Below are positions 6,577 to 46,815 of a DNA stretch of 46,815 nucleotides, piece by piece. The stretch comes from Runella rosea (GTDB taxonomy: Bacteria > Bacteroidota > Bacteroidia > Cytophagales > Spirosomataceae). The position numbers and the translations under genes are program-made. Positions within the stretch are counted from its first letter, which is position 1. Each line of letters opens with the position of its first letter. Location of the stretch: positions 1 to 46,815 of the forward strand of contig NZ_CP030855.1 in NCBI RefSeq assembly GCF_003325355.1, in the 5' to 3' direction. The notes under the pieces were generated by a model. It did no database searches, had not been told where the DNA came from, and saw nothing but the letters and a program-made list of their open reading frames with translations.

Positions 6577-6813
6577 GGGTGGAAGAGAGGTAATATTAAA
6601 AGCGGGGTGCAAATTACGGCCTTTTTGATTGCATATGTTACTGAAATGAATTGACAGGTGGAGTAGGGGCTTCATTGTCAGGGTAATATTGTACATTTCC
6701 GTGGCGAACTTTTTTATACGAATACCACCTGATTCGCTGATAACCCATCTGTTTATGAACCAGTATATCCCTGAAATAACTTGACAAAGTTAAGGGATTT
6801 TTTATGTACTAAT

Positions 6814-8271
6814 TTATTCTACGTTCGGTTGTACTTTTCTCATTTCACGCTTTTTCGATGGGCTCCACTTTCGGCCTAATTCGCCTTTCATTCGGTGAGC
6901 TTGCTCAGGGGTAAAATAGTCACAACTGGCATGTGGACGCAATGTATTATAGTTTAAGATCGCTCGCCTGATAGCTTCCTGAGCTTGCAGTGAATCAGCA
7001 AAACATTTATTTTGAAGCATGTCTTCGGCACCGGCCGCCCGGCTTAATGGTTCGGGTCATTCGTTCTGCTAACGCATTTTCGTAGGGATCACCATGTTCG
7101 GTCATGCTAATGGAAATAGAGTGATTATTCAACAGACCTATATACTCTCGACAGCAATACAGAACACAACGATCGGACTGGGCTGCCGGCGCAGTGATGA
7201 ATCAGACCAACACATAAACGTCCTTTATTGTCTTTAATAGCCATTTTTAAGGCAGAGACAGGACCAATCGCTCCTAAAGAATCCTCCAGAGCCCATCCAA
7301 CAATCTTTCTCGAATATGCATCCGTGATTAGACCGCGCGGCGTCCGCACAAATAAACAAATCCACTCCCAATGAGGATGTATCGGGGCGCCCCGTGGCGT
7401 TATATCGCTAACCCACAACAAGTTATGCATTAGCACCTTCTTGCCAACGGTTAGATTGGGATATTTAAAATAGCGGTGATGTGACGGCACGGGCCACCCC
7501 GCAAGTAGTTTTCACCGATCGTGTTTTTCTTTTAATTAACAATTCATTGTCTCTCAATAAATTAGCCAATTTATCTCTTCCAATCTTTATACCATGGCAC
7601 AACCGAAACTCTATTAATTGGTAATGTAAAACATCTACTCCTATACTGGGTAAATCCAGTCGTAATCTTCGAATTTCCGAAAGTAACATCAGGTTGTGAA
7701 ATTCTTCTTTTTCTGTTTGTTTTTGGGTATCATACCAAGCCTGGCGGCTTTTCCCAATCGGATCGCCACCGCGACAGCCCGCAGAGTATTTGCATACCCA
7801 CTAAGGGGTGATGCCGATTCAGTTCCGTTAGCGTTTGGGACCGCTCGGGCGGCCCCGCAGACTTTTTTCTAATAGCAATCTTAAACTGCGCGGGCAGCCC
7901 CGTCTTTTTCAGCGACATCAATCATCGTTTCAAAGGCTTCCCGTTTCAGCTTTTCCTGCTCAAGAAGTGCTTCGGTTTGAGCTAATTGAAGTTTAAGGCG
8001 AATAATTTCATCAGCCTCCTTTTTCATCTTTCTAATGTATTTAGATTTAGGATAATAGCGTCTAAGTCGATAGCGCTGGTAATCTCGATTCCAGGCTCGA
8101 AGTGAATTTAGAGAAATATTAAACGGTCCGCCGCGCGGCTCAGTCAAAATTTGGGTTTGACTTCCTAACTCAAGGCGGTACAACTCAATAACATGCCATC
8201 GAAAGGCTCCTGTTTTGTACTTTTTCTTTAAATTAATGAAGCTGCCGCTTCGGCGGACCGATCACTTTCAT
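6814..8271 (-). pseudogene. IS3-family transposase (OrfA/OrfB), multiply interrupted
   Basis: The reading starts at the ATG at 8271 (MKVI, then SFINLKKKYKTGAFRW after the first insertion is removed). OrfA-type helix-turn-helix and coiled-coil parts follow (SLRAWNRDYQRY; LKLQLAQTEALLEQEKLKRE). The OrfB integrase core includes WVSDIT, LITDAYSRKIVGWALEDS, GLIHHSDR, MTEHGDPYENALAERM and NYNTLRPHASCDYFTPEQA. Frame is lost repeatedly at 15-16 bp GC-rich insertions. Omitting these leaves an almost continuous frame. A few substitutions remain, such as DRC-VLYC where the family normally has DRGVQYC. The catalytic Asp and Glu motifs are recognisable, but no intact product can be made from the present sequence by normal translation. 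Confidence 0.88.
7027..8259. repeat. Ten GC-rich 15-16 bp micro-insertions inside the IS3 element
   Basis: Extra segments relative to the transposase frame lie at 7027-7042, 7177-7192, about 7332-7348, 7382-7397, 7487-7502, 7765-7780, 7844-7858, 7889-7904, 8124-8138 and 8244-8259. Most are exactly 16 bp; 7844-7858 and 8124-8138 are 15. They are nearly all G and C in an AT-rich element. Many share a small dyad: GGGCTGCCC, GGGCCGCCC, GGGTGGCCC, or CGGGGCGCCCCG at 7383-7394. A second group shares CCGCNNCGGCGG or CCGCGCGG. Boundaries may be off by 1-2 bases where flanking bases repeat. Insertion was inferred from restored protein continuity, for example KVI-SFIN, EK-QFKIAIRKK, HH-SDR and TIK-EDMLQ. 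Confidence 0.8.
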
Positions 8272-8433
8272 AACTTTTCACAATTAGTGTCAAGCTATTT
8301 CAGGGATATACAATTTTCATCCCATTTTTATCCCGGTTTACATCATTTTTTCATTCAGCTTATAACACCTTAGTATTCTTGCCATAGGAAACTATTACCT
8401 AGCTATTCGCTAACCTTTTTATCAACTGGGAAC

Positions 8434-10857: not shown

Positions 10858-10958
10858 GAATTACTGGAAGTCCTAAGAAGGTAATGATAGATTGTAAAGA
10901 GTGGCAATAAATCGAATGGAATTTATATATCGAACGATGTTTTTAGAAAAAGTTTGTT

Positions 10959-10985
10959 TTGTCCTGTACAAACAAACGCGGGTTT
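10959..10985 (+). repeat. Left 27-bp inverted repeat of the recombinase unit
   Basis: This site is an exact inverted copy of 12136-12162. Similarity continues outward for about eight more bases with three mismatches. The site with its left flank (10952-10977) is itself an imperfect dyad, with 8-bp arms GTTTGTTT and AAACAAAC around a 10-bp centre. That layout resembles serine-recombinase crossover sites. Confidence 0.85.
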
Positions 10986-11095
10986 ATTCAAACTTTTTCT
11001 GCTTTACCCAGCAACTCCTGAAAATTGTCAATAATCAGCCGTTTTCGTCAATAAAACTTGTATATCAATCAAAGTATAATTAACTTTAAGAATCA

Positions 11096-11113
11096 TTGTA
11101 TAAACCTATACAA
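11096..11113 (+). promoter_or_regulatory. Dyad TTGTATA-4-TATACAA directly before the recombinase start
   Basis: A perfect 7-bp inverted repeat with a 4-bp spacer ends on the base before the ATG at 11114. A further TTGTATA lies at 11058-11064. Placement over the translation start suggests an operator or recombinase-binding subsite, possibly for autoregulation (inference). Confidence 0.5.
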
Positions 11114-11716
11114 ATGCTGATCGGTTACGCCAGAGTGTCGACTAAAGACCAAAATTTAGAATTGCAGTGGGATGCCCTCACCAAAGCGGGCTGCGAAATG
11201 ATCTTTCAGGAAAAAGCTTCGGGCATCAAAGCCGACCGTCCTGAATTGGAGAAGATGATGTCTCAACTTCGCAAAGGGGATGTAGTTTGCATTTACAAAC
11301 TGGATCGTTTGGGACGTTCCCTTAAAAACCTGTTGGAACTAGTAGCGGAATTTGAAAAACGGGGAGTAGGCCTGCGAAGTTTAACCGACTCCATTGATAC
11401 CACCACGCCGCAGGGGCGATTGGTGCTGAATATTTTTGCTTCCCTAGCGGAGTTTGAACGCGATTTGATTCGGGAGCGAACCAAGGCGGGATTGGAAGCT
11501 GCCCGCGCCCGGGGGCGAAAGGGTGGAAGGCGCAGCGGTCTTTCGGCCGAAGCGCAGAAAAAAGCGATGTTGGCTGAGATGTATTACAAAGAGGAAAAAT
11601 TGGGCGTGGATGAAATTGCCAAAACGGTGGGCATTTCCAAAATGACATTGTATAAATATTTGCGACTGCGTGGAGTAAAGATCAGTGCGTATCAGAAAGG
11701 AGAAGTAAGCAAATAA
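11114..11716 (+). CDS. Serine recombinase (resolvase/invertase family)
   Basis: The start is the ATG at 11114 (MLIGYARVSTKDQNLELQ); the six upstream in-frame codons begin with TTG and overlap a dyad. The 200-aa product has the resolvase catalytic domain (about 1-140) with nucleophile Ser9 in YARVST. The family motifs LDRLGRSLKNL and GRLVLNIFASLAEFERDLIRERT are present. The C-terminal helix-turn-helix is VDEIAKTVGISKMTLYKYL. This small-serine-recombinase layout covers both Tn3-type resolvases and Gin/Hin-type invertases. The gene lies between perfect 27-bp inverted repeats, and inverted rather than direct sites favour inversion. A relict transposon unit is also possible, since no transposase is present between the repeats. 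Confidence 0.9.
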   Translation: MLIGYARVSTKDQNLELQWDALTKAGCEMIFQEKASGIKADRPELEKMMSQLRKGDVVCIYKLDRLGRSLKNLLELVAEFEKRGVGLRSLTDSIDTTTPQGRLVLNIFASLAEFERDLIRERTKAGLEAARARGRKGGRRSGLSAEAQKKAMLAEMYYKEEKLGVDEIAKTVGISKMTLYKYLRLRGVKISAYQKGEVSK

Positions 11717-11768
11717 GTTGACAGTCCCAATAAATCTACAATCTTATTCTATTGCCGCTTAGTTTCAG

Positions 11769-11785
11769 TGCCACATAATGTGGCA
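11769..11785. repeat. Small hairpin after the recombinase gene
   Basis: The 8-bp arms TGCCACAT and ATGTGGCA are separated by one base, 52 bp past the recombinase stop. There is no following T run, so a termination role is uncertain. Confidence 0.4.
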
Positions 11786-12037
11786 TTGGAAGGATACAAA
11801 AAATCCCTGTTCGGCGATTTTCTTTCGAATGTTCGGGAACAAGGATTCTGAGACTTTTCTTCTTTATTATTTTCTTTCATTTTCATGTTTGAAAATCCTA
11901 TTGAAGAAGAAGTGAAATAAAAGTAGAGGATATTTGTGATTATTCCTAATTAAAATATAATTAAAACGGGTTAAAATATTCTTAAAACGTGGTATTCTGC
12001 CTTGTTATTAATTTTGAATCTGCATTTAAAATGGATA

Positions 12038-12063
12038 AGGTCTATACATTGATTGATAGACCT
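12038..12063. repeat. Hairpin inside the recombinase unit
   Basis: The 8-bp arms AGGTCTAT (12038-12045) and ATAGACCT (12056-12063) are perfectly complementary around a 10-nt loop. The hairpin lies 12 bp before the larger hairpin at 12075-12123. Confidence 0.4.
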
Positions 12064-12074
12064 GTTGAATAGCC

Positions 12075-12123
12075 ATTCCATACTGATTTTCCCCTCTTTT
12101 TTAAGGTAAAATCAGTATGGAAT
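12075..12123. terminator. Large hairpin with 16-bp perfect stem
   Basis: The arms 12075-12090 and 12108-12123 (ATTCCATACTGATTTT and its complement) enclose a 17-nt T/C-rich loop. The hairpin lies just inside the right 27-bp repeat. It probably ends transcription from the recombinase side, although no T tract follows the stem. Confidence 0.45.
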
Positions 12124-12135
12124 CAGACAGGTATC

Positions 12136-12162
12136 AAACCCGCGTTTGTTTGTACAGGACAA
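12136..12162 (-). repeat. Right 27-bp inverted repeat of the recombinase unit
   Basis: All 27 bases are complementary to 10959-10985 in inverted orientation. The pair bounds a segment of about 1.2 kb holding only the recombinase gene and hairpins. The repeat carries TTTG elements, and TATTTTG follows about 20 bp to the right, so a weak rightward promoter could straddle it (inference). Confidence 0.85.
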
Positions 12163-12182
12163 GACAAGGTTATTTTGGTTCA

Positions 12183-18267: not shown

Positions 18268-20000
18268 TGTAAATTCCTATGAAAGTGGTTCATCGTCACA
18301 TTTGGTGAAAGTTGGGGTATAGGTTGTAATTTTGAAGAATGGACTCTTTCTTGCTTTTGCCTTCCAACCTCGACTTAGAACTACTTGATTACGAGCTTTA
18401 CCCCGACCGGATTGATTTGCAGGTCATAAGCACAGCCTCTACTACCTGCTGTTCTGTTTGCAGGCATCTTAGCCACAAAATCCATAGTTGCTACCGGCGA
18501 ATCATCCATGATTTGCCCTCTGGTGGCCGAAGAGTTCGATTACAGCTGCAGGTCAGGAAATACTTTTGTAAAAATGCCGACTGCCCACGCAAGATATTTA
18601 CGGAAAGATTTGCCACTGGTTTAGCCAGTTATGCTCGTCGATTTGAGCGTTTGAATCAAGTACTTACCGGTATAGGGCTGGAATCAGGAGGGAATCCTTC
18701 TACCCGTCAAGCTCACTATTTCTCCGTTAAGGTAAGTGCTTCCACTGTTCTGAGACTTATAAAAAAATGTAATATACCTCCCATCATTTCACCTAAAATC
18801 ATTGGAGTTGATGATTATGCCTTTAAAAAGGGGCGCAAATATGGGACCGTTATCGTCGATTTGGAAACACACCGAGTGATTGATTTATTACCTGACCGAG
18901 AAGCTAAGACCTTATCCGACTGGCTGTTAGAGTACCAAAGCATCGAAATTGTCAGCAGGGATCGTTCAAATACGTACGCCGCTGCCATTACAGAAGCCTG
19001 TCCACAGGCAGAACAGATTGCCGACCGATGGCATATTCTGAAAAACCTCTCGGAAACTGTTGAGCGATTTTTAGATACTCAACGGGGAGAAATTAATGAA
19101 ACAGCGCTTAACTTAAGCCAACAACAGCACCAAAAGTCTGTTAATGAGGATATTACTGGTGAAAAGTCGGAAGCTATTCCTACAGAATCTGTTTTACAAA
19201 AACCTGTTTTTGTCGGAAAGTATCAGGACAATTTTCTAAAAGTCAAAGAATTACAATCGAAAAACTATAGTATTAGAAAGATAGCAACTACTCTAAAAAT
19301 GTCTCGCAGGACGGTGGCAAAATATTGGAATCGGATAGAGTTTGTCCCTAAAGCTTCTCGTAAACGAAGTAATATTCTTGATTTTGAGGCGTATCTGCAA
19401 CAGCGTTGGCAGGAAGGGCAGCAGTCGGCCAAAGCATTATATGAAGAAATTAGCGATAAAGGATTCACTTATTCTCAAGCTACAGTCTATAACATGGTAA
19501 GAAAGTATCCCAAATCGGTCTTGGAACCACTGCCGGCGTCGGTAAAAGCAACCTACTATTCTTCCAAACAATTAAGTATTTGGTTAGGGATGTATCAGAA
19601 TGATTGGGAAGATTATATGCCTATTGAATTTTTAAGAAAACTATTGGAAGAAAACCCACTCATCAAGGCCGTCAGAGAAATTGCTTTAGAATTTAGGCAA
19701 CTCATGAAGACAAAGCAAGGGGACCAACTTCAGACTTGGTGCAAAAAAGCGCTTGATTCAGAAGTGGAAGCACTGAAAGGGTTTGTCAGGGGGATTAAAC
19801 AGGATTTTAAAGCCATTTTCCAAGCCTTCACCTCTAAATGGAACAATGGGCAGGTCGAAGGGCAAGTTAATCGACTTAAAAACATCAAGCGTCAAATGTA
19901 TGGAAGGGCGAGTTTTGAGCTGCTCCGCAAAAGAGTCATCCTGATGGGAAACCCCAACTTTCACCAAATGTGACGATGAACCATTTTCACGCCATTTTAC
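18268..20000 (+). mobile_element. Intact ISL3-family insertion sequence
   Basis: Perfect 32-bp inverted repeats lie at 18286-18317 and 19952-19983 (core CACATTTGGTGAAAGTTGGGG). Imperfect similarity extends outward to about 18268 and 20000. AAGTA flanks both ends (18263-18267 and 20001-20005); an 8-bp duplication, usual for ISL3, is not exact. The element carries a single intact transposase gene and appears complete. A relic of a related element lies at 1717-1907. Confidence 0.88.
18339..19973 (+). CDS. ISL3-family transposase
   Basis: This 544-aa DDE transposase has an N-terminal zinc-binding region with CCSVCRHL (37-44) and CKNADCPRK (77-85). A small DNA-binding region follows, then the catalytic core with Asp158 or Asp159 (IIGVDDYAFKKG), Asp208 (IVSRDRSNTYA) and Glu507 (NGQVEGQVNRLKNIKRQMYG). 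A helix-turn-helix-like insert lies near 320-345 (YSIRKIATTLKMSRRTVAKYW). The last residues (NPNFHQM) and the stop codon are encoded within the right inverted repeat. The gene is full length without frameshifts, so the element could be active. Confidence 0.93.
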   Translation: MDSFLLLPSNLDLELLDYELYPDRIDLQVISTASTTCCSVCRHLSHKIHSCYRRIIHDLPSGGRRVRLQLQVRKYFCKNADCPRKIFTERFATGLASYARRFERLNQVLTGIGLESGGNPSTRQAHYFSVKVSASTVLRLIKKCNIPPIISPKIIGVDDYAFKKGRKYGTVIVDLETHRVIDLLPDREAKTLSDWLLEYQSIEIVSRDRSNTYAAAITEACPQAEQIADRWHILKNLSETVERFLDTQRGEINETALNLSQQQHQKSVNEDITGEKSEAIPTESVLQKPVFVGKYQDNFLKVKELQSKNYSIRKIATTLKMSRRTVAKYWNRIEFVPKASRKRSNILDFEAYLQQRWQEGQQSAKALYEEISDKGFTYSQATVYNMVRKYPKSVLEPLPASVKATYYSSKQLSIWLGMYQNDWEDYMPIEFLRKLLEENPLIKAVREIALEFRQLMKTKQGDQLQTWCKKALDSEVEALKGFVRGIKQDFKAIFQAFTSKWNNGQVEGQVNRLKNIKRQMYGRASFELLRKRVILMGNPNFHQM

Positions 20001-32204: not shown

Positions 32205-35200
32205 TTAAGGGCAGCCGCCAATGTATGCTAAAAAGCTATTACCTGCTCCCGCCGTAGCACTGAAGCCGGGATTCAGCGTCACCGATTTGGTTGCCTGATA
32301 TACCACCGTTGCCCCCGACACCTGATTGGTGGCCACGATCTTATCGGCCGCCTTTAGTACCGTGCCCGATGTAATGTTTTCCGTCACCGTCAGATTCGCT
32401 GGCCCGCTGCTTCCACTGCTCTGGCTTTCATACACCCCACGATCTACAATGCCCAACCCTACAGGATAAGGACGCAGATTGCCCTCCAGATCTACATTCG
32501 GTGCGACTGAATTATCGCCCCCGTTAATGGCTGGCGAGCAAGGGAGCAAGTGGTAATCCCCCAACGTGCCCATTGGAGCAAGCCCGTTAGCATTCGGATT
32601 GACAAACTGCGGATTCTGGTTGCTATTGCCCACTCCAGTATAGCCCCCTTCCACCGTGCTATAGGTAATATTGCTACCCAAGGTAGACTGTAACGGTGAG
32701 TTACCCCATAATATACTGTTTTTTACCGTAGTTACTGAATTGGCGTTGTAAATACCCCCCGCATTTTTTCCATCATCCTTGTTGGATGCGATAGTAGTAT
32801 TCACCAGCAATGGTTGACTGCCATTGACGTACAGACCGCCTCCTAACCCTTTGTTAATGACCATCAGTACGTTCTCAAAATAGGGTCTACTACCTCCCAA
32901 CACATAAACTGCGCCCCCGAAGGTAGCTTCATTGCCAAAAATGATACTTTGAGTGATGCGCATGTGGCTGCTATCGCGAAGCATCATACCCCCGCCTCCC
33001 ACCGCCCGGTTGTCAGTGATGATACAATTGGTGATCAGCCCTTTACTCTTATTAATCGCCAAAATCCCCCCGCCCGAGGCCAGCACTGCTGGGTCGTTGA
33101 GGTCTGTATCCTGAGTGATACCCACGAATTCAGCAAAACCTTTCTCGATGCGGAATCCGTCCAGACGGGTCAGTGAATCCGTGCTTCGGAACAAAACTAC
33201 GTGATTACTGTTGTCATTGCGCTGGGTGCCGCCGATCTCGCCGCTGAGGATGGTCAGGTGGTTTTTTGGGTTTTGCTGACTCAACAGCGTTTCGTTTCCT
33301 TCAAACCCACCGTAGACCTTCACGCCGGACGGGATGGTGAACACATCTCGGCGCAGGGTGCCGGGTTTGTAAGTGCCCTTAGCGACCCACACTTCGACGG
33401 GGACGTCGTAGGCCAGGGCGGCGGTATCGAGCCCCATCTTGAGATCGGAGAAGGCGGTGGTCCATGATTTACCGTTTCTGATGACGGCTTTGTTGGCCTG
33501 ATTGACAAAGATCTGTTTGACGACTTTGACGAAGACGTTGGCGGACGGGTCGGAGAGGCAGGTTACGGGGCTGGAACTTTGTTGGCAACGGGCATAAAAG
33601 GAGGCCGCAGACAGAATGGTGGCGGGCATGGCAACGGGGGAATTGTCGCTGCTTAAGTACCAGTTGACCGCCGCGTTTGGACCGCTGCATCCCGAGGCGC
33701 GCAGAGAAAAGGGGAGGTTGGGGATAACGATGGTGTCGTTCTGCACCGTCGGTACGGCAGGGCTGAGAATCGTGATCAACACGGCCTCAGAGAATGCTTT
33801 GCTGCACACACCGCTTTTGACGAGGGCTCGGAAATAGGTGTTTGCCGTCAGGTTGCCGATGGTGGCACTTGTCAAGGTTGTCGCTGTGGAGACAATATCA
33901 ACGGGGCTGGTGAAAGCCTCGTCGGAGGATTTTTGCCATTTGACGACGCTGCCCGTTTGGCCACTCAGGCTCAAATCAGCGGGAGCCGTGCCTGCGCAGA
34001 TGGTTTGGGCCGCGCTGACGGTTCCGCCTACGCTGACGGGATTGACGGTGATCAAAACGGCCTCAGAAAATGCTTCGGCACAGACGCCGCTTTTGACGAG
34101 GGCTCGGAAATAGGTGTTAACCGTCAGGTTGCCGATGGTGGCACTCGTCAGCGTAGTTTCTGTGGAGACAATGTCAACGGGGCTGCTGAAGGCCATGTCA
34201 GTTGACTTTTGCCATTTGATGAGGCTACCCGTTTGACCGCTCAGGCTCAAATCAGCGGGAGCGGTGCCAGAGCAGATGGTTTGGGCCGCGCTTAGGGTTC
34301 CGCCTGCGCTGACGGGATTGACGGTAATTAAAACGGCCTCAGAAAATGCTTCGGCACAGACGCCGCTTTTAACGACGGCTCTGAAATAAGTATTGGTCGT
34401 GAGGTTGCCGATTGTGACACTTGTCAAGGTTGTACTTGTCGAAACAATATCAACGGGGCTGCTGAAAGCCATGTCGGTTGATTTTTGCCATTTGACGACG
34501 TTGCCCGTTTGTCCGCTCAGGCTCAAATCGACGGGAGCCGTGCTCGAGCAGATGGTTTGGGCCGAACCTACCGTACCGCCTGCGCTGACGGGATTGACGG
34601 TGATCAAAACGGCCTCAGAAAATGCTTCGGCACATACGCCGCTTTTAACGACGGCTCTGAAATAAGTATTGGTCGTGAGGTTGCCGATTGTGACACTTGT
34701 CAAGGTTGTACTTGTCGAAACAATATCAACGGGGCTGCTGAAAGCCATGTCGGTTGATTTTTGCCATTTGACGACGTTGCCCGTTTGTCCGCTCAGGCTC
34801 AAATCGACGGGAGCCGTGCTCGAGCAGATGGTTTGGGCCGAACCTACCGTACCGCCTGCGCTGACGGGATTGACGGTGATCAAAACGGCCTCAGAAAATG
34901 CTTCGGCACATACGCCGCTTTTGACGAGGGCTCTGAAATAAGTGTTGGTGGTGAGGTGGCCGATGGTGGCACTCGTCAAGGTTGTAGCAGTGGAGACAAT
35001 GTCAACGGGGCTGGTGAAAGCCGCGTCGGAGGATTTTTGCCATTTGATGACGCTACCCGTTTGGCCACTCAGGCTCAAATCAGCGGGAGCCGTGCCTGCA
35101 CAGATGGTTTGGGCCGCACTTAGGGTTCCGCCTACGCTGACGGGATTGACGGTGATCAAAACGGCCTCAGAAAATGCTTCGGCACATACGCCGCTTTTGA

Positions 35201-38200
35201 CGAGGGCTCGGAAATAGGTGTTAGCCGTCAGGTTGCCGATTGTGGCACTTGTCAGCGTAGTTTCTGTGGAGACAATGTCAACGGGGCTGCTGAAGGCCGC
35301 GTCGGAGGATTTTTGCCATTTGACGACGCTGCCCGTTTGGCCGCTCAATGTCAAATCAGCGGGCGAAGTACCAGAGCAGATGGTTTGGGCCGCGCTGACA
35401 GTTCCGCCTACGCTGACGGGATTGACGGTAATTAAAACGGCCTCAGAAAATGCTTCGGCACATACGCCGCTTTTGACGACGGCCCGGAAATACGTATTGG
35501 CCGTCAGGTTGCCGATTGTGGCACTTGTCAAGGTTGTACTTGTCGAAACAATGTCAACGGGGCTGCTGAGGGCCGCGTCAGAGGATTTTTGCCATTTGAC
35601 TACGTTGCCGACTTGATTGCTCAGGCTCAAATCAGCGGGAGCTGTGCCAGAGCAGATGGTTTGGGTGTTGCCTACCGTTCCGCCCAAGCTGTTGGGGTTG
35701 ACCGTCACGCTCCCCATAATCTCCTCCGAAATGCAGTTGGTGGTGGTATTTGAGAGGGTTAAAGTAAACGAAATCGAACTCCCCGAAGCCCCTGTGCTTA
35801 AAGTGACGCTGATGGGGTTGGTCAAATCTCCGTCGTTGACGGTCGTAATACCCACTCCCGAAATCGAATACTTATTGGGCGATTGGGTGGGGTTGGTGTA
35901 GGGAATAGTAAACGATATCGCTCCCGCGCAAATGGCGGGAATGGTACTCAGCGTCAGCGACGGTTTGGCGGGGTCGTTGAGGGTGGCGGTAGCGGCGTTG
36001 CTGACGCAAGCCCCGTAGGTGGCCACGATGTGGGTGTAGCTGCCCGCGCCTAAGCCCGTGAGGGTGATGACTCCGCCGTCGCTGGAAGTAAAGTTGGCAG
36101 CGGCCACGTCGTTGTTGTCTTTTTTGTAGGTAACGCTGTACGTGGTACTGTTCAGGAAGCCGCTCAGGGTAATGCTGCCGTTGTTGCCCCCGCAAGTGAT
36201 GGGGTTGTTGCTGCCCACGGTGGGGGTAAGGGCGGTGGGCGGCGCGAATTGGTATTCATACGCCCCCATATCTACTCTACCGCTATTGAAAAAGCGTGGA
36301 TTCCCCGCCAAGTCCACATTACCCGCCGTAGCAGAGGTGGTAGCTGGGTCTCCCGCGTTGATGGCGGGGGAGCAGGCTTGCAGGCGGAAGTTGCCGCCCG
36401 CGGCGTTGACGAAGAGCGGGTTGGCGGCAGCGTTGTTGCCGTTATCGTTGATGATGGCATTGTCGCCATTGCTAATTGCCGCAATTCCTCCTTCCAGTAT
36501 CGTGTGGGAGATATTTAACGTGGAAGCAGACCCATTCCTGATTTGGTTCCCTCTAACCGCTGCCTGGTTGCCCCAGAAGATGCAATTGCGCAGGGTGATA
36601 GTAGGGCTACCCAAATTTGATGCTTGAAAAAGAGCACCTCCATCTCCCAGTGCTGAGTTGTTGGCAAAGGTGCAGTTGGTAATCGTCACATTTGCATTGC
36701 CGGAAGTCCACATTGCCCCACCATGAGAAAATGAACTGTTGTAGGTTGCCTGATTTTCGAAGAAAAGACAATTGGTGAATGTCGGTTGGCTACTGCCCTG
36801 ATCCCCTTCGTTCGCAACCGCTCCACCAGACCTTGCAAAGTTATTTTTAAACACGCAATTGACGACGGTAGGATTACAATTTCCACCTATTCCATTGTTG
36901 TACATGCCCCCTCCACTACTAAAACCACTTGTATTCGCATTTCCGCCCGTCACTACAAAACCATCCAGTACAGCTGTGTTATTGATTGCATTTCCGTTGC
37001 GGATGACATTGCGGCAATTGTCTGTGATATCACCCACCGTGCCAATGTCGCCGCTGAGGATGGTCTCGTTGGTCGCCCAGTTGCGGTCGGTTAGGGTAGG
37101 GTTGCCCGTATTGGGAAAGCCACCGTAGATGGCCACGCCGTTTTTCATCACAAAGGAAATGCTGCGGTTGGTGCCGCTGGTCGGTTTGTACGTACCAGCG
37201 GCGACCCAGATTTGGTCGCCCGAACCGGCGGCGGCGAGGGCTTGCTGCAAATCTTTGAAGGCACAATCCCAAGACCTGCCGTTGCCCGATACCGATACCG
37301 AAGCATTGACAAACCATACACCGGGGACTGTGTTCGGTAGGGTCGCTTGAAATTCATACGCCCCCATGTCAATCATCTGCCCACCCGAGACGGACTCGAA
37401 CTTTCGGGGATTGCCGCCGAGGTCGGCGGTGGTGGTATTGGCCGCATCGCTGCCCGCATCAATGGCGGGGGAGCAGGCTTGCAGGCGGAAGTTGCCGCCC
37501 GCTGCGTTGATGAAGAGCGGATCGGCGTTACCATTTCCATTAGGGCAGTTAGCGCATCCGGTATAACCACCTTGTATGATGCAATTGGTGAAATTGCCAG
37601 AAACATCTGTTTGCCCCCAGATGATACAATTATTGAAAGTGGGCGAACCGGCCCCGTAATAAATTTCTTTGCCGGAATTACCGGTAAAGGTGCAATTGGT
37701 AAAGGTCGGATTTGCCGCGATAGCATTGTAAGTCCCGCCGCCAAAGCTAGCCGAGTTACCGGTAAAGATGGCGTTGGTGATGTTGGGGGAGCTCTCTGAG
37801 TTGTACATCCCGCCGCCAAAGCTAGCCGAGTTACCGGTAAAGATGGCGTTGGTGATGTTGGGGGAGCTCTGTAAGTTGCTCATCCCGCCGCCTGAGCTGT
37901 TAGCCGAGTTATCGGTAAAGTTGCAGTTTACCACTGTGGGAGAACTAGATTGGTTAAACATGCCTCCGCCCAAGCCTGATGCTAAATTACCAGTGAATGT
38001 GCAGTTATAAAAAGCAGGGCTGCTGTTTCTGTTATACACGCCACCTCCAAAGGCATTGATGGTATTGGATTGCCCATTGGCAATGCCGCCGCTAATCGTA
38101 AACCCGTCTAATATGGCATTGGCGTCCAGTCCGTTATCAAAATTGTAGATGACGTGGTAGCTGTTGTCGACGCTATTGCCCGCTGTGCCGATGTCGCCGC

Positions 38201-41200
38201 TGAGGGTGGTCACGTTGGTCGCCCAGTTCCGGTCTGCAAAAGTTGGGTCGCCCGAATTCGGGAAACCGCCGTAAATGGCCACGCCGTTTTTCATCACAAA
38301 GGAAATGGTGCGGTCGGTGCTGCTGGTCGGTTTGTAGGTGCCGGCGGCGACCCAGATTTGGTCGCCCGAACCGGCGGCGGCGAGGGCTTGCTGCAAATCT
38401 TTGAAGGCACAATCCCAAGACCTGCCGCTGCCCGATACCGATACCGAAGCATTGACAAACCATACACCGGGGACTGTGTTCGGTGTGGTCGCTTGAAATT
38501 CATACGCCCCCATGTCAATCATCTGCCCACCCAGGACGGACTCAAACTTGCGAGGATTGCCGCCGAGGTCGGCGGTGGTGGTATTGGCCGCATCGCTGCC
38601 CGCGTCAATGGCGGGCGAGCAGGCTTGCAGGCGGAGGTTGCCGCCCGCTGCGTTGACGAAGAGCGGGTCGGCGTTCAGGTTGCCCGTGCCAGTGAAGCCA
38701 CCCTGTACGATGGAATAGGTGACCGTGCCACCCGAAACGCCAGTGGCATTGCCCCATACGATGCAGTTGGTAATGGCGGTTGCGTTCACCTCGTTGCTTA
38801 TCGTGCTGTTACCGCCTATGTTGCCAAAGAAGGTGCAGTTGGTGACCCTGGCCGAAGCCGTGCCACCGCCATTGGACATGGCCGCACCCGCTACGGTGCA
38901 ACTGTTGCCGATGAACAGGCAGTTGGTCACACTTGCTTGGGAGTTGTCGTTGAACATAGCCCCACCTGCGGCGGCTGTGTTGTTCCTGAAAATACAGTTA
39001 CTGACCGTGGGCGAGGCGTGGGTGTTCCACATGCCACCGCCAAGGTTAAGCGGGAACCCACCGTTGGCATTTGCCGCCTCCACGGTAAAACCATCCAGTA
39101 TTGCAGAGCTGGCCAATGGTGCACTAGCAGTGAAGGTGTTGTTGATGACCCGATAGGAATTGTCCGCTATGCCAGCCGCACCGATTTCACCGCTGAGGAT
39201 GGTCACGTTGGTGTTCCAGTTCCTTTGCGAAAGCTGCGTTTCATTACCAAAGAAGCCGCCGTAGATGGCCACGCCGTTTTTCATCACAAAGGCAGCATTG
39301 CGGTCGGTGCCGGAGGTGGGCTTGTAGGTGCCGGCGGCGACCCAGATTTGGTCGCCCGAACCGGCGGCGGCGAGGGCTTGCTGCAAATCTTTGAAGGCAC
39401 AATCCCAAGACCTGCCGCTGCCCGATACCGATACCGAAGCATTGACAAACCATACACCGGGGACTGTGTTCGGCAGGGTCGCTTGAAATTCATACGCCCC
39501 CATGTCTACCCTGCCGTTGTTGAAAAAGCGTGGATCCCCCGCCAAGTCCACATTGCCCACCGTAGCAGAGGTGGTAGCTGGGTCTCCCGCGTTGATGGCG
39601 GGCGAGCAGGCTGCTAAGGCGAGAGAGGTGGGGCTGATGAAGGGAGAGGTACTGGTTGTTAGACTATTGGTGGCCGTGTAAGTCGTTGGGTTAGAGGCAC
39701 TCTCCAGCAGGCTATACGAAATTAGAATAGGCTCATTCGTCCCATCCAGCCAAAATGTAAATAGACCATTGCCCGACACAACGCAGTTGGTTAGTTCAAC
39801 CACATGATTGTTTCCAGTCTTGTGCAGGGTGGTTGACCCCGTATTCCCCCGAAAGGAGCAATTAATTAACTGCGAACTCATACCACTCGTACTCGTATTA
39901 TTGAATAGTATAGCTGTTCCAATAAAGTTATTTTGACCTGTATTGTTATTGTTCTGAAATGCACAGTTCACATACATGCAACTCGCATCCTGGACAAATA
40001 TAGCTCCTCCTTGGGAGGATGTATTATTCCGAAAGAGACAGTTGGTGAGCTGAGCCTTAGTACTGCCTGTAGAAAGTAGTACTATTCCTCCACCAGCAAA
40101 ATTGGCAGAGTTATCACTAATCAGACAATTTTGTATTGTGGGGCTACTACCTGTATTGTTTATTCCACCACCCATAGACTGAGCTTGACTACTGGGATGG
40201 TTGGCATTTCCGCCCGAGATGGTAAACCCATCAAGGACGGCGGTAGTATTTAAACCCTTGCCATCGTTATTGATAACGTTGTAGCTGTTGTCACTGTTGT
40301 TGCCCACCGTGCCGATGTCCCCGCTGAGGGTGGTCACATTCGTCACCCAGTTTCTGTCTGCAAAAGTTGGGTTGCCCGAATTCGGGAAGCCTCCGTAGAT
40401 GGCCACGCCGTTTTTCATCACAAAGGAAATGGTGCGGTCGGTGCCGGTGGTCGGCTTGTAGGTGCCTGCGGCGACCCAGATTTGAGATACGCACGAGGGA
40501 TAGGTACTGGCTAAGGTAAGTGCAGCTTGTAAATCCGTAAAAGCATTTGCCCAAGTACTTCCGTTGTTGCTTCCAGAAGCGGAAGCATTGACGTACACGA
40601 TTCCTCCGGTAATATTAGTACAGGCACATACATTATACGTAGATTGGTACTCATACGCCCCCATATCGGCATTGCTCACGCCCGTGGCATTGAAGGGGCG
40701 AGCATTCCCTGCAAAGTCGGTTGAAGGGGCGTTGGTATTTGTACCTGCATCTATCGCCTGAGAACATTGCTGCAGGCGAAGGTCTCCCGATGCGGCGTTG
40801 ACGAAGAGCGGGTCGGCGTTCAGGTTGCCCGTGCCCGTGTAGCCGCCCTGTACAATAGAGTAGGTCACGTTACCGCCATTAATACCGCCGCTATTACCCC
40901 ATACAATACAGTTGGTGTAGCTGGCATTGGATTGATTTTCTATGGTAGTGCCGCCGGAGTTGCCATAAAATGTGCAATTGATCACCTTAACGTTGGCAGA
41001 ACCGCCACCACATGAAATGGCGGCACCTGAGATGGAGCAGGTATTGTTGATGAACAGGCAATTGGTGGCAGTGAGCGATGAGTTGTCGTTGAACATACAA
41101 GCACCCGCCCCTGCAAAGTTGTTTCTGAATGTACAGTTTCTGATAGTGGGCGAGGCATTGGCATTCCACATACCACCGCCAAGGTTAAGTGGAAAAGCTC

Positions 41201-41999
41201 CATTTGCATTGGCAGCCTCAAGGGTGAAGCCGTCCAATATGGCCGTGTTTGTAAGGGGACTACTTAAAGTGAAGGCGTTGTTGATGACCCGATAGGAATT
41301 GTCCGCTATGCCAGCCGCACCGATTTCACCGCTGAGGATGGTCACGTTGGTGTTCCAGTTGCGGTCGGTTAGGGTAGGGTCACCCGTATTCGGAAAGCCG
41401 CCGTAGATGGCCACGCCGTTTTTCATCACAAAGGCAGCATTGCGGTCGGTGCCGGAGGTGGGCTTGTAGGTACCCGCCGCTACCCAGATTTCTGTTAAGT
41501 TGCTATTGCAAGAATAATTGAGTGCCGATTGCAAATCGGTAAAAGCATCGGTCCACGTCAAGCCCGTATTTGCACCCGTGGCGGTAGCGTTCACGTAAAG
41601 GCGGGTGGGGGCCGGAGTGACCGTGAGCGGAATACAATCACTACTTACACTTACATTCGAAGCTTGAGATACTACATTGAATTTACAACTTCGCATACCT
41701 TGCGGTAATGTTATTTTCAACGGCGCGCCAGTAATCAATCCAGGAGGCACTACCTCAAACGTATTGGTCAAGGCAGGTTCTCCCTCACAGTTAGGATTGG
41801 TATAAAAAGTACGGGTTACCGTTAAGTTTTGGAGAGCATTTGACCAAATGATTGCTACATCACCAGTTTCTGAACCAGCACAACCCTGAACATTCATTAC
41901 GGTGCGTATATATAATATCTCAGGAACTGTTTGCGCCTGACTATGCAAGGGCAACAGATTGCTTAAAATCAAGAAGATTGTTAGTAGTTTGTGTTTCAT
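32205..41999 (-). CDS. Giant multi-domain beta-helix adhesin (3264 aa)
   Basis: The protein has a signal peptide (about 1-23, ending HSQAQ) and an N-terminal region of about 105 residues. Five choice-of-anchor-Q-like beta-helix modules follow (about 132-455, 467-840, 849-1170, 1178-1552 and 1560-1918). Each has YVNASA-type starts, (I)WVAAGTYKPT, FVMKNGVAIYGGF and DPLF(V/I)NAAGG...RLQACSPAI(D/N)AG...DMGAYE. Ig-like segments (about 1920-2103), seven 92-aa repeats (2104-2747), another Ig-like part, a sixth beta-helix (about 2829-3190) and a C-terminal module ending FLAYIGGCP complete it. That ending fits the 3-coathanger-stack, GCX-COOH type and may act as a sorting signal. The protein is probably surface displayed and adhesive. 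The start overlaps the upstream 61-aa gene by 4 bp. Confidence 0.92.
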   Translation of the reverse strand: MKHKLLTIFLILSNLLPLHSQAQTVPEILYIRTVMNVQGCAGSETGDVAIIWSNALQNLTVTRTFYTNPNCEGEPALTNTFEVVPPGLITGAPLKITLPQGMRSCKFNVVSQASNVSVSSDCIPLTVTPAPTRLYVNATATGANTGLTWTDAFTDLQSALNYSCNSNLTEIWVAAGTYKPTSGTDRNAAFVMKNGVAIYGGFPNTGDPTLTDRNWNTNVTILSGEIGAAGIADNSYRVINNAFTLSSPLTNTAILDGFTLEAANANGAFPLNLGGGMWNANASPTIRNCTFRNNFAGAGACMFNDNSSLTATNCLFINNTCSISGAAISCGGGSANVKVINCTFYGNSGGTTIENQSNASYTNCIVWGNSGGINGGNVTYSIVQGGYTGTGNLNADPLFVNAASGDLRLQQCSQAIDAGTNTNAPSTDFAGNARPFNATGVSNADMGAYEYQSTYNVCACTNITGGIVYVNASASGSNNGSTWANAFTDLQAALTLASTYPSCVSQIWVAAGTYKPTTGTDRTISFVMKNGVAIYGGFPNSGNPTFADRNWVTNVTTLSGDIGTVGNNSDNSYNVINNDGKGLNTTAVLDGFTISGGNANHPSSQAQSMGGGINNTGSSPTIQNCLISDNSANFAGGGIVLLSTGSTKAQLTNCLFRNNTSSQGGAIFVQDASCMYVNCAFQNNNNTGQNNFIGTAILFNNTSTSGMSSQLINCSFRGNTGSTTLHKTGNNHVVELTNCVVSGNGLFTFWLDGTNEPILISYSLLESASNPTTYTATNSLTTSTSPFISPTSLALAACSPAINAGDPATTSATVGNVDLAGDPRFFNNGRVDMGAYEFQATLPNTVPGVWFVNASVSVSGSGRSWDCAFKDLQQALAAAGSGDQIWVAAGTYKPTSGTDRNAAFVMKNGVAIYGGFFGNETQLSQRNWNTNVTILSGEIGAAGIADNSYRVINNTFTASAPLASSAILDGFTVEAANANGGFPLNLGGGMWNTHASPTVSNCIFRNNTAAAGGAMFNDNSQASVTNCLFIGNSCTVAGAAMSNGGGTASARVTNCTFFGNIGGNSTISNEVNATAITNCIVWGNATGVSGGTVTYSIVQGGFTGTGNLNADPLFVNAAGGNLRLQACSPAIDAGSDAANTTTADLGGNPRKFESVLGGQMIDMGAYEFQATTPNTVPGVWFVNASVSVSGSGRSWDCAFKDLQQALAAAGSGDQIWVAAGTYKPTSSTDRTISFVMKNGVAIYGGFPNSGDPTFADRNWATNVTTLSGDIGTAGNSVDNSYHVIYNFDNGLDANAILDGFTISGGIANGQSNTINAFGGGVYNRNSSPAFYNCTFTGNLASGLGGGMFNQSSSPTVVNCNFTDNSANSSGGGMSNLQSSPNITNAIFTGNSASFGGGMYNSESSPNITNAIFTGNSASFGGGTYNAIAANPTFTNCTFTGNSGKEIYYGAGSPTFNNCIIWGQTDVSGNFTNCIIQGGYTGCANCPNGNGNADPLFINAAGGNFRLQACSPAIDAGSDAANTTTADLGGNPRKFESVSGGQMIDMGAYEFQATLPNTVPGVWFVNASVSVSGNGRSWDCAFKDLQQALAAAGSGDQIWVAAGTYKPTSGTNRSISFVMKNGVAIYGGFPNTGNPTLTDRNWATNETILSGDIGTVGDITDNCRNVIRNGNAINNTAVLDGFVVTGGNANTSGFSSGGGMYNNGIGGNCNPTVVNCVFKNNFARSGGAVANEGDQGSSQPTFTNCLFFENQATYNSSFSHGGAMWTSGNANVTITNCTFANNSALGDGGALFQASNLGSPTITLRNCIFWGNQAAVRGNQIRNGSASTLNISHTILEGGIAAISNGDNAIINDNGNNAAANPLFVNAAGGNFRLQACSPAINAGDPATTSATAGNVDLAGNPRFFNSGRVDMGAYEYQFAPPTALTPTVGSNNPITCGGNNGSITLSGFLNSTTYSVTYKKDNNDVAAANFTSSDGGVITLTGLGAGSYTHIVATYGACVSNAATATLNDPAKPSLTLSTIPAICAGAISFTIPYTNPTQSPNKYSISGVGITTVNDGDLTNPISVTLSTGASGSSISFTLTLSNTTTNCISEEIMGSVTVNPNSLGGTVGNTQTICSGTAPADLSLSNQVGNVVKWQKSSDAALSSPVDIVSTSTTLTSATIGNLTANTYFRAVVKSGVCAEAFSEAVLITVNPVSVGGTVSAAQTICSGTSPADLTLSGQTGSVVKWQKSSDAAFSSPVDIVSTETTLTSATIGNLTANTYFRALVKSGVCAEAFSEAVLITVNPVSVGGTLSAAQTICAGTAPADLSLSGQTGSVIKWQKSSDAAFTSPVDIVSTATTLTSATIGHLTTNTYFRALVKSGVCAEAFSEAVLITVNPVSAGGTVGSAQTICSSTAPVDLSLSGQTGNVVKWQKSTDMAFSSPVDIVSTSTTLTSVTIGNLTTNTYFRAVVKSGVCAEAFSEAVLITVNPVSAGGTVGSAQTICSSTAPVDLSLSGQTGNVVKWQKSTDMAFSSPVDIVSTSTTLTSVTIGNLTTNTYFRAVVKSGVCAEAFSEAVLITVNPVSAGGTLSAAQTICSGTAPADLSLSGQTGSLIKWQKSTDMAFSSPVDIVSTETTLTSATIGNLTVNTYFRALVKSGVCAEAFSEAVLITVNPVSVGGTVSAAQTICAGTAPADLSLSGQTGSVVKWQKSSDEAFTSPVDIVSTATTLTSATIGNLTANTYFRALVKSGVCSKAFSEAVLITILSPAVPTVQNDTIVIPNLPFSLRASGCSGPNAAVNWYLSSDNSPVAMPATILSAASFYARCQQSSSPVTCLSDPSANVFVKVVKQIFVNQANKAVIRNGKSWTTAFSDLKMGLDTAALAYDVPVEVWVAKGTYKPGTLRRDVFTIPSGVKVYGGFEGNETLLSQQNPKNHLTILSGEIGGTQRNDNSNHVVLFRSTDSLTRLDGFRIEKGFAEFVGITQDTDLNDPAVLASGGGILAINKSKGLITNCIITDNRAVGGGGMMLRDSSHMRITQSIIFGNEATFGGAVYVLGGSRPYFENVLMVINKGLGGGLYVNGSQPLLVNTTIASNKDDGKNAGGIYNANSVTTVKNSILWGNSPLQSTLGSNITYSTVEGGYTGVGNSNQNPQFVNPNANGLAPMGTLGDYHLLPCSPAINGGDNSVAPNVDLEGNLRPYPVGLGIVDRGVYESQSSGSSGPANLTVTENITSGTVLKAADKIVATNQVSGATVVYQATKSVTLNPGFSATAGAGNSFLAYIGGCP
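32242..33173 (-). repeat. 932-bp block shared with 44773-45704
   Basis: The C-terminal beta-helix and most of the final module of the giant gene match the second giant gene at a constant offset of 12531 bp. No difference was seen over the stretches compared, while both flanks diverge quickly. It encodes about residues 2943-3253. Confidence 0.85.
33759..35690 (-). repeat. Seven tandem 276-bp repeats in the giant gene
   Basis: Each unit encodes 92 residues with QTIC(S/A)GTAPADLSLS, TGSVVKWQKSSD, TTLTSATIGNLTANTYFRA and CAEAFSEAVLITVNPV. The fourth and fifth units, around 34381-34930, appear identical over essentially their full length. That indicates recent unit duplication or conversion. Confidence 0.88.
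37140..39504 (-). repeat. Near-identical DNA segments between beta-helix modules
   Basis: About 220-230 bp covering each module boundary recur at 37140-37370, 38286-38516 and 39283-39504. They encode GVWFVNASVSVSG, SWDCAFKDLQQALAAAGSGDQ and WVAAGTYKPTS. A further partial copy is near 40380-40480. Such segments can drive module loss or gain by recombination (inference). Confidence 0.75.
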
Positions 42000-44702: not shown

Positions 44703-46815
44703 TTACTTTTGAGCCTGACTGCCTGTAACGGCCGCTGTGTTACAACCACCGATAAAGGCCTGAAAACTGTTGCCTGCTCCCGCCGTAGCACTGAAGCCGG
44801 GATTCAGCGTCACCGATTTGGTTGCCTGATATACCACCGTTGCCCCCGACACCTGATTGGTGGCCACGATCTTATCGGCCGCCTTTAGTACCGTGCCCGA
44901 TGTAATGTTTTCCGTCACCGTCAGATTCGCTGGCCCGCTGCTTCCACTGCTCTGGCTTTCATACACCCCACGATCTACAATGCCCAACCCTACAGGATAA
45001 GGACGCAGATTGCCCTCCAGATCTACATTCGGTGCGACTGAATTATCGCCCCCGTTAATGGCTGGCGAGCAAGGGAGCAAGTGGTAATCCCCCAACGTGC
45101 CCATTGGAGCAAGCCCGTTAGCATTCGGATTGACAAACTGCGGATTCTGGTTGCTATTGCCCACTCCAGTATAGCCCCCTTCCACCGTGCTATAGGTAAT
45201 ATTGCTACCCAAGGTAGACTGTAACGGTGAGTTACCCCATAATATACTGTTTTTTACCGTAGTTACTGAATTGGCGTTGTAAATACCCCCCGCATTTTTT
45301 CCATCATCCTTGTTGGATGCGATAGTAGTATTCACCAGCAATGGTTGACTGCCATTGACGTACAGACCGCCTCCTAACCCTTTGTTAATGACCATCAGTA
45401 CGTTCTCAAAATAGGGTCTACTACCTCCCAACACATAAACTGCGCCCCCGAAGGTAGCTTCATTGCCAAAAATGATACTTTGAGTGATGCGCATGTGGCT
45501 GCTATCGCGAAGCATCATACCCCCGCCTCCCACCGCCCGGTTGTCAGTGATGATACAATTGGTGATCAGCCCTTTACTCTTATTAATCGCCAAAATCCCC
45601 CCGCCCGAGGCCAGCACTGCTGGGTCGTTGAGGTCTGTATCCTGAGTGATACCCACGAATTCAGCAAAACCTTTCTCGATGCGGAATCCGTCCAGACGGG
45701 TCAGCGAATCCGTTCCTCGGAACACTACCACGTGATTGCTATTATCATTGAGTTGCGGTCCACCGATCTCTCCGCTCAAAATCACGGGGTGAGTCTTCCA
45801 GTTACGCTCAGATAAATCCGTTTCTGTTCCCGCAAAACCGCCATAAACGTGTACATTAGAAGGAATCTCGAAAACATCACTACGCGACGTGCCAGGTTTA
45901 TAGTTACCCTGTGCTACCCACACCTGTATGTTGGAGTCTGTTAAGGCGGCGGCGGCGCTCAAGCCTGATTGCAAATTCGCATAAGCCGTTAACCAACTTG
46001 CACCGTTCTGGACAGGATTAGTATTAGCTATGTTGACAAAAATCAGTGTCGTCTTAGTGAGAATTTGCAGAGTATCAGTGGTTTCAAAAGCAGGACAGAC
46101 CCCACTTGCCGCAATCGTATAAGTGACAATATAGTTGTCAGGGATACTTCCGGCTAAATTGACTTCACCTGTGCTGGCATTGAGTAATAATCCTGGTGTT
46201 GAGCTAAAAATTCCGCCCATTATCCCCGTTAAAGTAACGGAAGCTATCCCAGAATTTGTATATGGAGATCCTGCATAATTGATTGTTGCACTTGGGACAG
46301 GAACTACGTTAATGGTTTGTGAAGCACTGGTAGTTACACATGTTGTGTCTGCTGTGGTGCGGACTTGGAAAGTGTAGGCAGCGGGCGTTAACCCACTGAA
46401 ACTATTACTGCTTTGCCAAACGGTACCATTTTTTGAATACTGTAAAGGCAAATTGCTAGTGGCATTGATCTGTGCGGTTCCCGTGGGCACTGCACAGGTA
46501 GGTTGTGTCAGTATTACCTCCGAAATCATTGGTGCGTTCGGTACAGAATTGACCGTCAAACTCAGCGGTTTTGAGGTACAACCCGTAGCCGTGTTTTGGG
46601 CCGTGACCTGATACGTGTAAGGCGACAAATTGGCAAAGGTGGCTGAGGTTTGGTAAGCCCCGCCGACGCTGTATTGGATACTTCCGCCCGTGGGAGCTGT
46701 AATCATAATCGTGCCCGTCGGAGTTGTGCAGGTGGGTTGTTGCGTCACCGTGGCCGTTGGGGTGGCAGGCGCATTCGGAACGGCATTCACCGTTAAACTC
46801 AATGCGGGTGAAGTG
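44703..46815 (-). CDS. Second giant beta-helix adhesin (5' part beyond window)
   Basis: About 704 residues are visible and the frame is open at the right edge, so the N-terminus is missing. The visible part starts with repeats of SprB-like or Ig-like type (PTCTTPTGTI, then IQYSVGGAYQTSATFANLSP and TCAVPTGTAQI...LQYSKNGTVWQSS), followed by an Ig-like segment and one beta-helix domain. The C-terminal module contains ATNQVSGATVVYQATKS and ends FIGGCNTAAVTGSQAQK. The terminal beta-helix and module share about 930 bp of near-identical DNA with the 3264-aa protein, but the tail is 17 residues longer after GGC. It is probably exported and surface bound. Confidence 0.9.
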   Translation of the reverse strand, partial: TSPALSLTVNAVPNAPATPTATVTQQPTCTTPTGTIMITAPTGGSIQYSVGGAYQTSATFANLSPYTYQVTAQNTATGCTSKPLSLTVNSVPNAPMISEVILTQPTCAVPTGTAQINATSNLPLQYSKNGTVWQSSNSFSGLTPAAYTFQVRTTADTTCVTTSASQTINVVPVPSATINYAGSPYTNSGIASVTLTGIMGGIFSSTPGLLLNASTGEVNLAGSIPDNYIVTYTIAASGVCPAFETTDTLQILTKTTLIFVNIANTNPVQNGASWLTAYANLQSGLSAAAALTDSNIQVWVAQGNYKPGTSRSDVFEIPSNVHVYGGFAGTETDLSERNWKTHPVILSGEIGGPQLNDNSNHVVVFRGTDSLTRLDGFRIEKGFAEFVGITQDTDLNDPAVLASGGGILAINKSKGLITNCIITDNRAVGGGGMMLRDSSHMRITQSIIFGNEATFGGAVYVLGGSRPYFENVLMVINKGLGGGLYVNGSQPLLVNTTIASNKDDGKNAGGIYNANSVTTVKNSILWGNSPLQSTLGSNITYSTVEGGYTGVGNSNQNPQFVNPNANGLAPMGTLGDYHLLPCSPAINGGDNSVAPNVDLEGNLRPYPVGLGIVDRGVYESQSSGSSGPANLTVTENITSGTVLKAADKIVATNQVSGATVVYQATKSVTLNPGFSATAGAGNSFQAFIGGCNTAAVTGSQAQK
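44773..45704 (-). repeat. 932-bp block shared with 32242-33173
   Basis: This is the second copy of the conserved C-terminal block, at a constant offset of 12531 bp and in the same orientation. Direct repeats of this size could recombine and delete the 12.5 kb between them. Confidence 0.85.

Follow-up and report, generated by a model that had tools for sequence, protein, structure and literature searches.

What are the GC-rich segments that interrupt the transposase genes of a single insertion sequence in Runella rosea ten times over? The window, by which we mean the whole stretch of 46,815 bp that was analyzed, is the entire contig C6 of this genome (G000), which comprises 7,162,093 bp in 7 contigs, one of 6.81 Mb and six of 35–88 kb that look like plasmids, going by size. 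As far as sequence comparison goes, the ten inserts are members of a new family of very small, putatively mobile repeats. We consider it quite likely that this is a dispersed family of 16-bp double-hairpin elements that are non-autonomous and are moved in trans by an enzyme recognizing the folded strand.

Ten inserts in one IS3 element

The element that hosts the inserts has the terminal inverted repeats and the rve/DDE core of the IS3 family, the rve domains having been scored on a relative in genome G077 and not on the window element itself. A DNA search finds no other copy in its own genome, and the flanking sequences read AACCA and AATTT, in which no short duplication is apparent. Taken in pieces, its frames match the IS3 orfB of G077 at 58%, 51%, 56%, and 68%. 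The IS3 proteins of this relative (L002) served as the insert-free reference for a codon-level alignment, in which 87 of 126 positions are identical in orfA and 184 of 301 in orfB.

This alignment bears out the claim of the first-pass annotation that ten extra GC-rich segments interrupt the transposase (Table 1). Eight of them are 16 bp long, one is 15 bp and one 14 bp, which amends the earlier figure of 15 or 16 bp for the well-defined ones. The lengths are 16, 15, 16, and 16 bp in orfA, and 16, 16 (printed as 7+9), 16, 14, 16, and 16 bp in orfB. Nine of the ten shift the frame, rather than eight as first counted. Read across the inserts, both transposase frames are free of internal stops; besides the inserts there is one 6-nt length difference within them, and the C-terminus, which has diverged, shows a gap of 35 nt. 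By eye, insert 2 reads as a member of subfamily II missing one loop base and insert 8 as one short of two single bases. Aligning the element to uninterrupted copies, the check proposed at the outset, is possible with genome G006, where at least 11 places carry a related IS of which the first 120 bases are present before the contig breaks off. These copies lack insert 1, and hence its boundary is exact to the base. An IS3 element on a Spirosoma oryzicola plasmid carries no strict family members.

Table 1. Positions in the window of the IS3-family element, its terminal repeats, and the ten inserts.
Feature	Positions	Strand	Description
IS3-family element hosting the inserts	6763..8311	-	orfA and orfB, both on the minus strand
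IS3 terminal inverted repeats, 24 bp	6763-6786 and 8288-8311		96% complementary
Insert 1	8246..8261	-	16 bp, near orfA start; strict 17-mer, target base 8245; absent in G006 copies
Insert 2	8124..8138		15 bp, frame kept; from codon alignment
Insert 3	7887..7902	-	16 bp; strict 17-mer 7886-7902
Insert 4	7842..7857	-	16 bp; strict 17-mer 7841-7857
Insert 5	7759..7774	-	16 bp; hairpin one perfect, hairpin two with one wobble and one mispair
Insert 6	7486..7501	-	16 bp; one G-T wobble on the minus strand (counts as a mispair on the plus strand)
Insert 7	7383..7398	+	16 bp; strict 17-mer 7383-7399
Insert 8	7335..7348		14 bp; ends uncertain by 1-2 bases; from codon alignment
Insert 9	7178..7193	+	16 bp; one wobble pair; within HHS/D motif of the DDE core
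Insert 10	7027..7042	-	16 bp; strict 17-mer 7026-7042

Two insertion sites recur in other genomes. By eye, insert 8 occupies the same site as an insert in an IS3 element of G078 (L005:846). For insert 9, two IS3 elements of G054 carry near-identical rare variants at the corresponding codon (L004:1617; L030:1517). The three elements with this variant span two genera and their flanks are only about 69–81% identical; the 116 bases downstream of insert 9 show 69% identity to the G054 copies versus 73% to an insert-free relative. The coincidence could arise if this position is a hot site for one variant, or if the insert has been conserved.

One could argue that ribosomes read across the inserts, which would then persist in a working transposase gene. 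Three observations agree with such translational bypassing: the frames of the window element are free of other stops, both frames of further IS3 copies are, by eye, stop-free too, and IS3 elements from two genera share a near-identical variant at one and the same codon. However, intact frames are equally explained by recent insertion, and copies also lie between genes or within MITE-like repeats, which makes bypassing improbable. Bypassed inserts occur in mitochondrial genes of Magnusiomyces (PMC5009743). As far as the accessible part of that paper goes, many short frame-breaking inserts in genes are common to both cases; unlike the Magnusiomyces inserts, Runella-type copies are also found outside genes, and for them bypassing is only a candidate reading.

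The remainder of the contig shows some features of its own. One stretch shares 86% identity with a portion of a Runella slithyformis plasmid, and at 10947-12174 inverted repeats of 39 bp (90% complementary) flank a segment 86% identical to a recombinase gene region of an R. slithyformis plasmid. An open frame of 3264 aa (32205-41999) contains tandem repeats of 276 bp and of a longer period, and has a 300-bp stretch in common, at 96%, with the frame 44703-46802. Rfam gave no match within the window at the gathering threshold, and no relative turned up in a first protein-level scan of viral sequences.

A 17-mer with two overlapping hairpins

The well-kept inserts fit a 17-mer in which bases 1–4 pair with bases 9–12 and bases 6–9 with bases 14–17. 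Sixteen of these bases are inserted and the target supplies base 17 (base 1 on the other strand). Both strands look alike because the plan maps onto itself under reverse complement. The first-pass annotation had pointed to a shared dyad core in both orientations; the dyad and both orientations are there, although two overlapping 4-4-4 hairpins in a 17-mer describe it better. All eight Watson–Crick pairs are present in five of the ten inserts (strict matches), and inserts 6 and 9 fit the 17-mer with one wobble, on one strand.

We compared 392 geometries in 1.14 Mb of G000 and in 0.39 Mb of loci from G003 and G018, with the search pattern masked because the G003 and G018 loci had been chosen around pattern hits. 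The combination of stem 4, loop 4, and offset 5 has 11 matches in G000, compared to a mean of 1.35 over all geometries, and 14 in the G003 and G018 loci, compared to a mean of 1.15. Only concentric geometries, which are equivalent to one longer hairpin, score higher (three in G000 and two in G003 and G018). Positions 7 and 16, which the pattern leaves free, are complementary in all 14 copies of G003, with four pair types. In G018, where one master sequence makes up most of the 100 copies among the matches listed, some copies break the 7–16 pair (C faces A in three copies and A faces A in one; in six more T faces G), and hence the pair is not absolute. Each hairpin on its own is weak, with energies between −3.6 and −4.5 kcal/mol and z-scores between −0.2 and −1.5. 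One G018 copy (L336) falls below 16 bp, so not every member is intact. Flanking bases and element variant showed no association in 58 CGGG..CCCG contexts, the criterion being at most 10 of 500 shuffles. Associations between variant and flank in a mixed set of 115 contexts came with mixed orientation and were dropped.

How far does the family extend? The pattern CGGGGCNGCCCGNGCNG, which covers subfamily I only, was searched in 198 genomes, our own included, with the reversed pattern as control and with loci L120-L239 (viral_contigs) left out of all counts. It is found in 69 of the 198 genomes: in 13 of 13 from the same genus, 60 of 121 from the same family, and 9 of 77 from the rest of the order. 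Copy numbers reach 116 in G018, 99 in G007, 40 in G005, and 35 in G076, and the R. rosea genome has 7. The reversed control gives 0–1 matches per genome within the family and up to 7 in several genomes elsewhere in the order. A stricter pattern with AT-rich flanks, run on 84,980 species genomes, gave 16 matches from 9 genomes (6 of them in one Runella MAG and 3 in one Emticicia MAG). Without exception, the labels of these records read Runella, Spirosoma, Larkinella, Rudanella, Emticicia, Spirosomataceae, or Cytophagia. The literature searched, mostly open-access papers, contained no description of this 17-mer repeat family or of its fold.

Filled sites, empty sites, and the places where copies sit

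The strongest case for movement comes from comparing the IS3 elements of G007 and G018, two genomes of different genera. The elements are 98.5% identical, with 1283 matches, 20 mismatches, and four gaps, and each of the gaps is an exact 16-bp member of the family, at four different sites, two per copy. On sequence grounds such a pair suggests mobility. It also leaves an assembly error or ordinary decay with a practically negligible probability: all four indels are exact members of 16 bp only, and the same family is present in dozens of genome assemblies.

A search for filled and empty sites reduced 466 contexts to 21 events after the removal of tandem or nested arrays and of further entries for an event already counted (L067, L240:1612, L334, L337, L338:645-677, and most of L339). 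The filled and empty copies differ by 16 bp with no duplicated base, and hence show no sign of a target duplication. A G is kept beside the insert in 16 of the 21 pairs. In the other 5 pairs the base is not G; some insertions may come with the change of a single base, or the empty site may have drifted since. The preferred site of subfamily I reads R^GT because R (A or G) precedes the insert in 84% of 69 contexts (position −1) and T follows the G in 80% (position +1); the G itself is imposed, since these contexts were selected with G at position 17.

Dispersed short copies with exact empty sites, as well as insertion into other repeats, are features of very small mobile repeats, and both are found here. 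In G003 two copies of one palindromic repeat, the first filled and the second empty or vice versa, lie within about 150 bp of each other. In G018 one element is nested in another, and the joined flanks form a 17-mer that is seen on contig C2 of the R. rosea genome itself. MITE-like copies in G018 carry none, one, or several elements at one place.

The main rival of an enzyme-driven process is replication template switching. Here, a DNA polymerase whose fork has stalled would use a GC-rich hairpin elsewhere in the cell as its template and then resume at the original site, now longer by 16 bp; no dedicated enzyme would be needed. One base of identity at one junction, usually a G, is what such a process could leave, and the lack of both a target duplication and an identified enzyme agrees with it. 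Yet it would not be expected to produce a constant length of 16 bp, the same ends in many genomes, or a preference for R^GT. We therefore regard template switching as rather unlikely.

Two further repeats of these genomes are worth recording. The MITE-like repeat of G018 (L240, L265, L334-L339), with ends TAAGTAGTTG and CAACTACTTA, is present in many copies and holds nested and tandem 17-mers. In G000 and G003, a dispersed palindrome around GTTGGTGTTATCACCAAC (L246, L247, L256) has served as a landing site more than once.

Within the window, all five strict matches lie inside the IS3 element (40 shuffles average 0.075 matches, with a maximum of 1), and for strict matches the earlier observation that neighboring genes are free of insertions thus holds. 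Allowing one mispair gives eight places in the IS3 element and six outside, each of the six with a mispair and without resemblance to the family. The five strict matches on the other plasmid-sized contigs also lie in IS3 or ISL3 elements, which puts 10 of 10 strict copies on such contigs into transposase elements. The hosts are IS3 elements in C2 (two, the second with Pfam scores under the curated cut-off) and C6, and ISL3 in C5, where the copy at 49197 was assigned to its host because the DNA resembles the ISL3 genes of C5 and of the window. A looser match at 16898 of C5 lies in another ISL3 copy, and its empty counterpart in the window is weak. The window has an intact ISL3-type transposase gene at 18339-19973 that is free of inserts; its relatives on C5 carry family inserts.

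In a chromosome sample of G000 (840 kb) strict matches are few, 7 compared to 2.0 expected. In other genomes copies are found between genes, for example at L320. G003 has copies in a broken tyrosine recombinase gene and in a broken DDE_3 gene (of the IS630 type), and G005 has one in a broken Y1 transposase gene. Of 34 canonical strict matches from 20 loci, 7 fall within a stop-to-stop frame at least 200 codons long. Two of these, both at L320, follow the end of one gene and precede the likely start of the next, one (L329) comes before the first ATG, and one (L331) is in a broken integrase; the remaining three are at L326, L332, and L334. Among 20 proteins scanned for Pfam families, seven had no family match: orfA of the relative and six fragments adjoining copies (four at L328, one each at L327 and L336).

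A host defense that inserts hairpins to silence transposons, as the first-pass annotation had also considered, would account for the 10 of 10 strict copies found in transposase elements on the plasmid-sized contigs of R. rosea. However, other genomes carry copies in intergenic DNA, and the ISL3 gene of the window is untouched. Since intergenic DNA and MITE-like repeats harbor copies as well, a host process is not needed, and we judge it very improbable; the bias on the plasmid-sized contigs leaves room for a weak form of the idea. Its companion proposal, a very small mobile family in dispensable DNA, is supported by what can be observed directly: a shared architecture, dispersal through the family, exact filled and empty sites, nesting, and a target bias. 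The IS3 element was probably a dispensable landing ground: it collected ten inserts, which comprise several variants and both orientations, and other decay came later.

Candidate enzymes and known systems

The length and the ends are constant, one site is preferred, and the fold persists although bases change, which leads us to infer a protein acting on the folded strand. Under this proposal a single enzyme would act in trans on non-autonomous elements by recognizing the folded strand, the mobile form would be that folded single strand, and insertion at R^GT-like sites would leave no target duplication. The enzyme may be a single-strand (HUH/Y1-like) transposase; among known enzymes, Y1 transposases fit best and are compatible with the data.

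Y1 transposases (PF01797) are present in 159 of the 198 genomes, including all 6 copy-bearing genomes first tested, and are not diagnostic. By eye, there is no clear relation across genomes between the number of Y1 matches and that of elements, counted with a pattern that covers subfamily I only. G071, G100, and G103 have 11–12 Y1 matches and zero pattern copies, and G111 has 5 pattern copies and zero Y1 matches. Hence, the presence of Y1 is neither sufficient nor clearly necessary. Reverse transcriptases (PF00078) are found in 4 of 10 copy-rich genomes and in 5 of 10 genomes without a pattern match. Because G018, with its 116 copies, has no PF00078 match at threshold, a reverse transcriptase is not required, as far as an assembly of 90% completeness can tell. 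No mobilizing enzyme emerged from these comparisons. This tells against the proposal of movement in trans, as do the weak single hairpins, the broken 7–16 pairs of G018, the 5 pairs in which the kept base is not G, and the small number of strict matches in the chromosome sample of G000.

Could a resident RAYT (TnpA-REP) protein be moving these elements as REP sequences? They are short imperfect palindromes in many copies, and all six copy-bearing genomes first tested have Y1 genes. Among 30 loci around Y1 genes (of 36 Y1 matches; flanks of about 1.5 kb, or less near a contig end), 6 contain any strict or one-wobble match, yet only 2 have a canonical-looking copy, L270 within the gene and L297 about 850 bp off. 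Most REPs carry a GTAG or CGTC tetranucleotide at one end (PMC3733652) and adjoin RAYT genes (PMC3733652, PMC3116915), going by the portions of these papers available to us. Many-copy short palindromes and possible non-autonomous movement as a single strand are features that the Runella inserts have in common with the REPs and REPINs of these sources. Unlike them, the inserts have no regular RAYT neighbor, and neither tetranucleotide is constant at the ends of the subfamily I and II element columns. The size differs as well (16 bp versus 20–40). It is therefore unlikely that the elements belong to a REP/RAYT system.

The analogies first drawn with cyanobacterial repeats and yeast GC clusters are apt in kind. 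The small dispersed repeats (SDRs) of cyanobacteria, reportedly described by Elhai and colleagues in 2008, are very small, dispersed, inferred to be mobile, and able to enter other repeats; their length is 21–27. Both SDRs and Runella inserts are very small and dispersed, whereas SDRs are longer and belong to another phylum, and we know of no overlapping double hairpin in them. Some SDRs are given as 20 bp (PMC2884548, as far as its available text goes), and SDR5 is described as inserted precisely between bases 3 and 4 of HIP1 in the accessible part of PMC4390886, a paper that also cites the work of Elhai and colleagues.

GC clusters, or double-hairpin elements, of fungal mitochondria are GC-rich, palindromic, mobile, and merging, and keep their structure while the loops vary; GC42 measures 42 bp, and a putative AG target duplication is mentioned (all from the available part of PMC4478555). 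To the extent of that source, the Runella inserts are also GC-rich, palindromic, putatively mobile, and merging with a conserved fold, and an enzyme is known for neither; unlike GC clusters, they are 16 bp long and have no target duplication. By their way of working, the Runella inserts belong with SDRs and GC clusters and are smaller than both, as far as our recall and the available parts of PMC4390886, PMC2884548, and PMC4478555 go.

The 16-bp inserts are likely to be among the smallest mobile DNA elements known. One could go further and propose that a DNA of 16 nt is the smallest transposable element known, that it moves as a folded single strand through a new R^GT enzyme, mostly into transposons, and that it is a parasite silencing other mobile elements; this is conceivable, although we consider it doubtful.

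If our preferred reading, a family of 16-bp double-hairpin elements moved in trans, is correct, it would set a new lower size for mobile DNA. The exact empty sites would provide a clean natural record of insertions, and the movement of very small repeats (SDRs, GC clusters, REPs) would become testable in a group with culturable species. Transposase genes riddled by elements too small for standard annotation may also lead to unexplained frameshifts in pseudogene calls.
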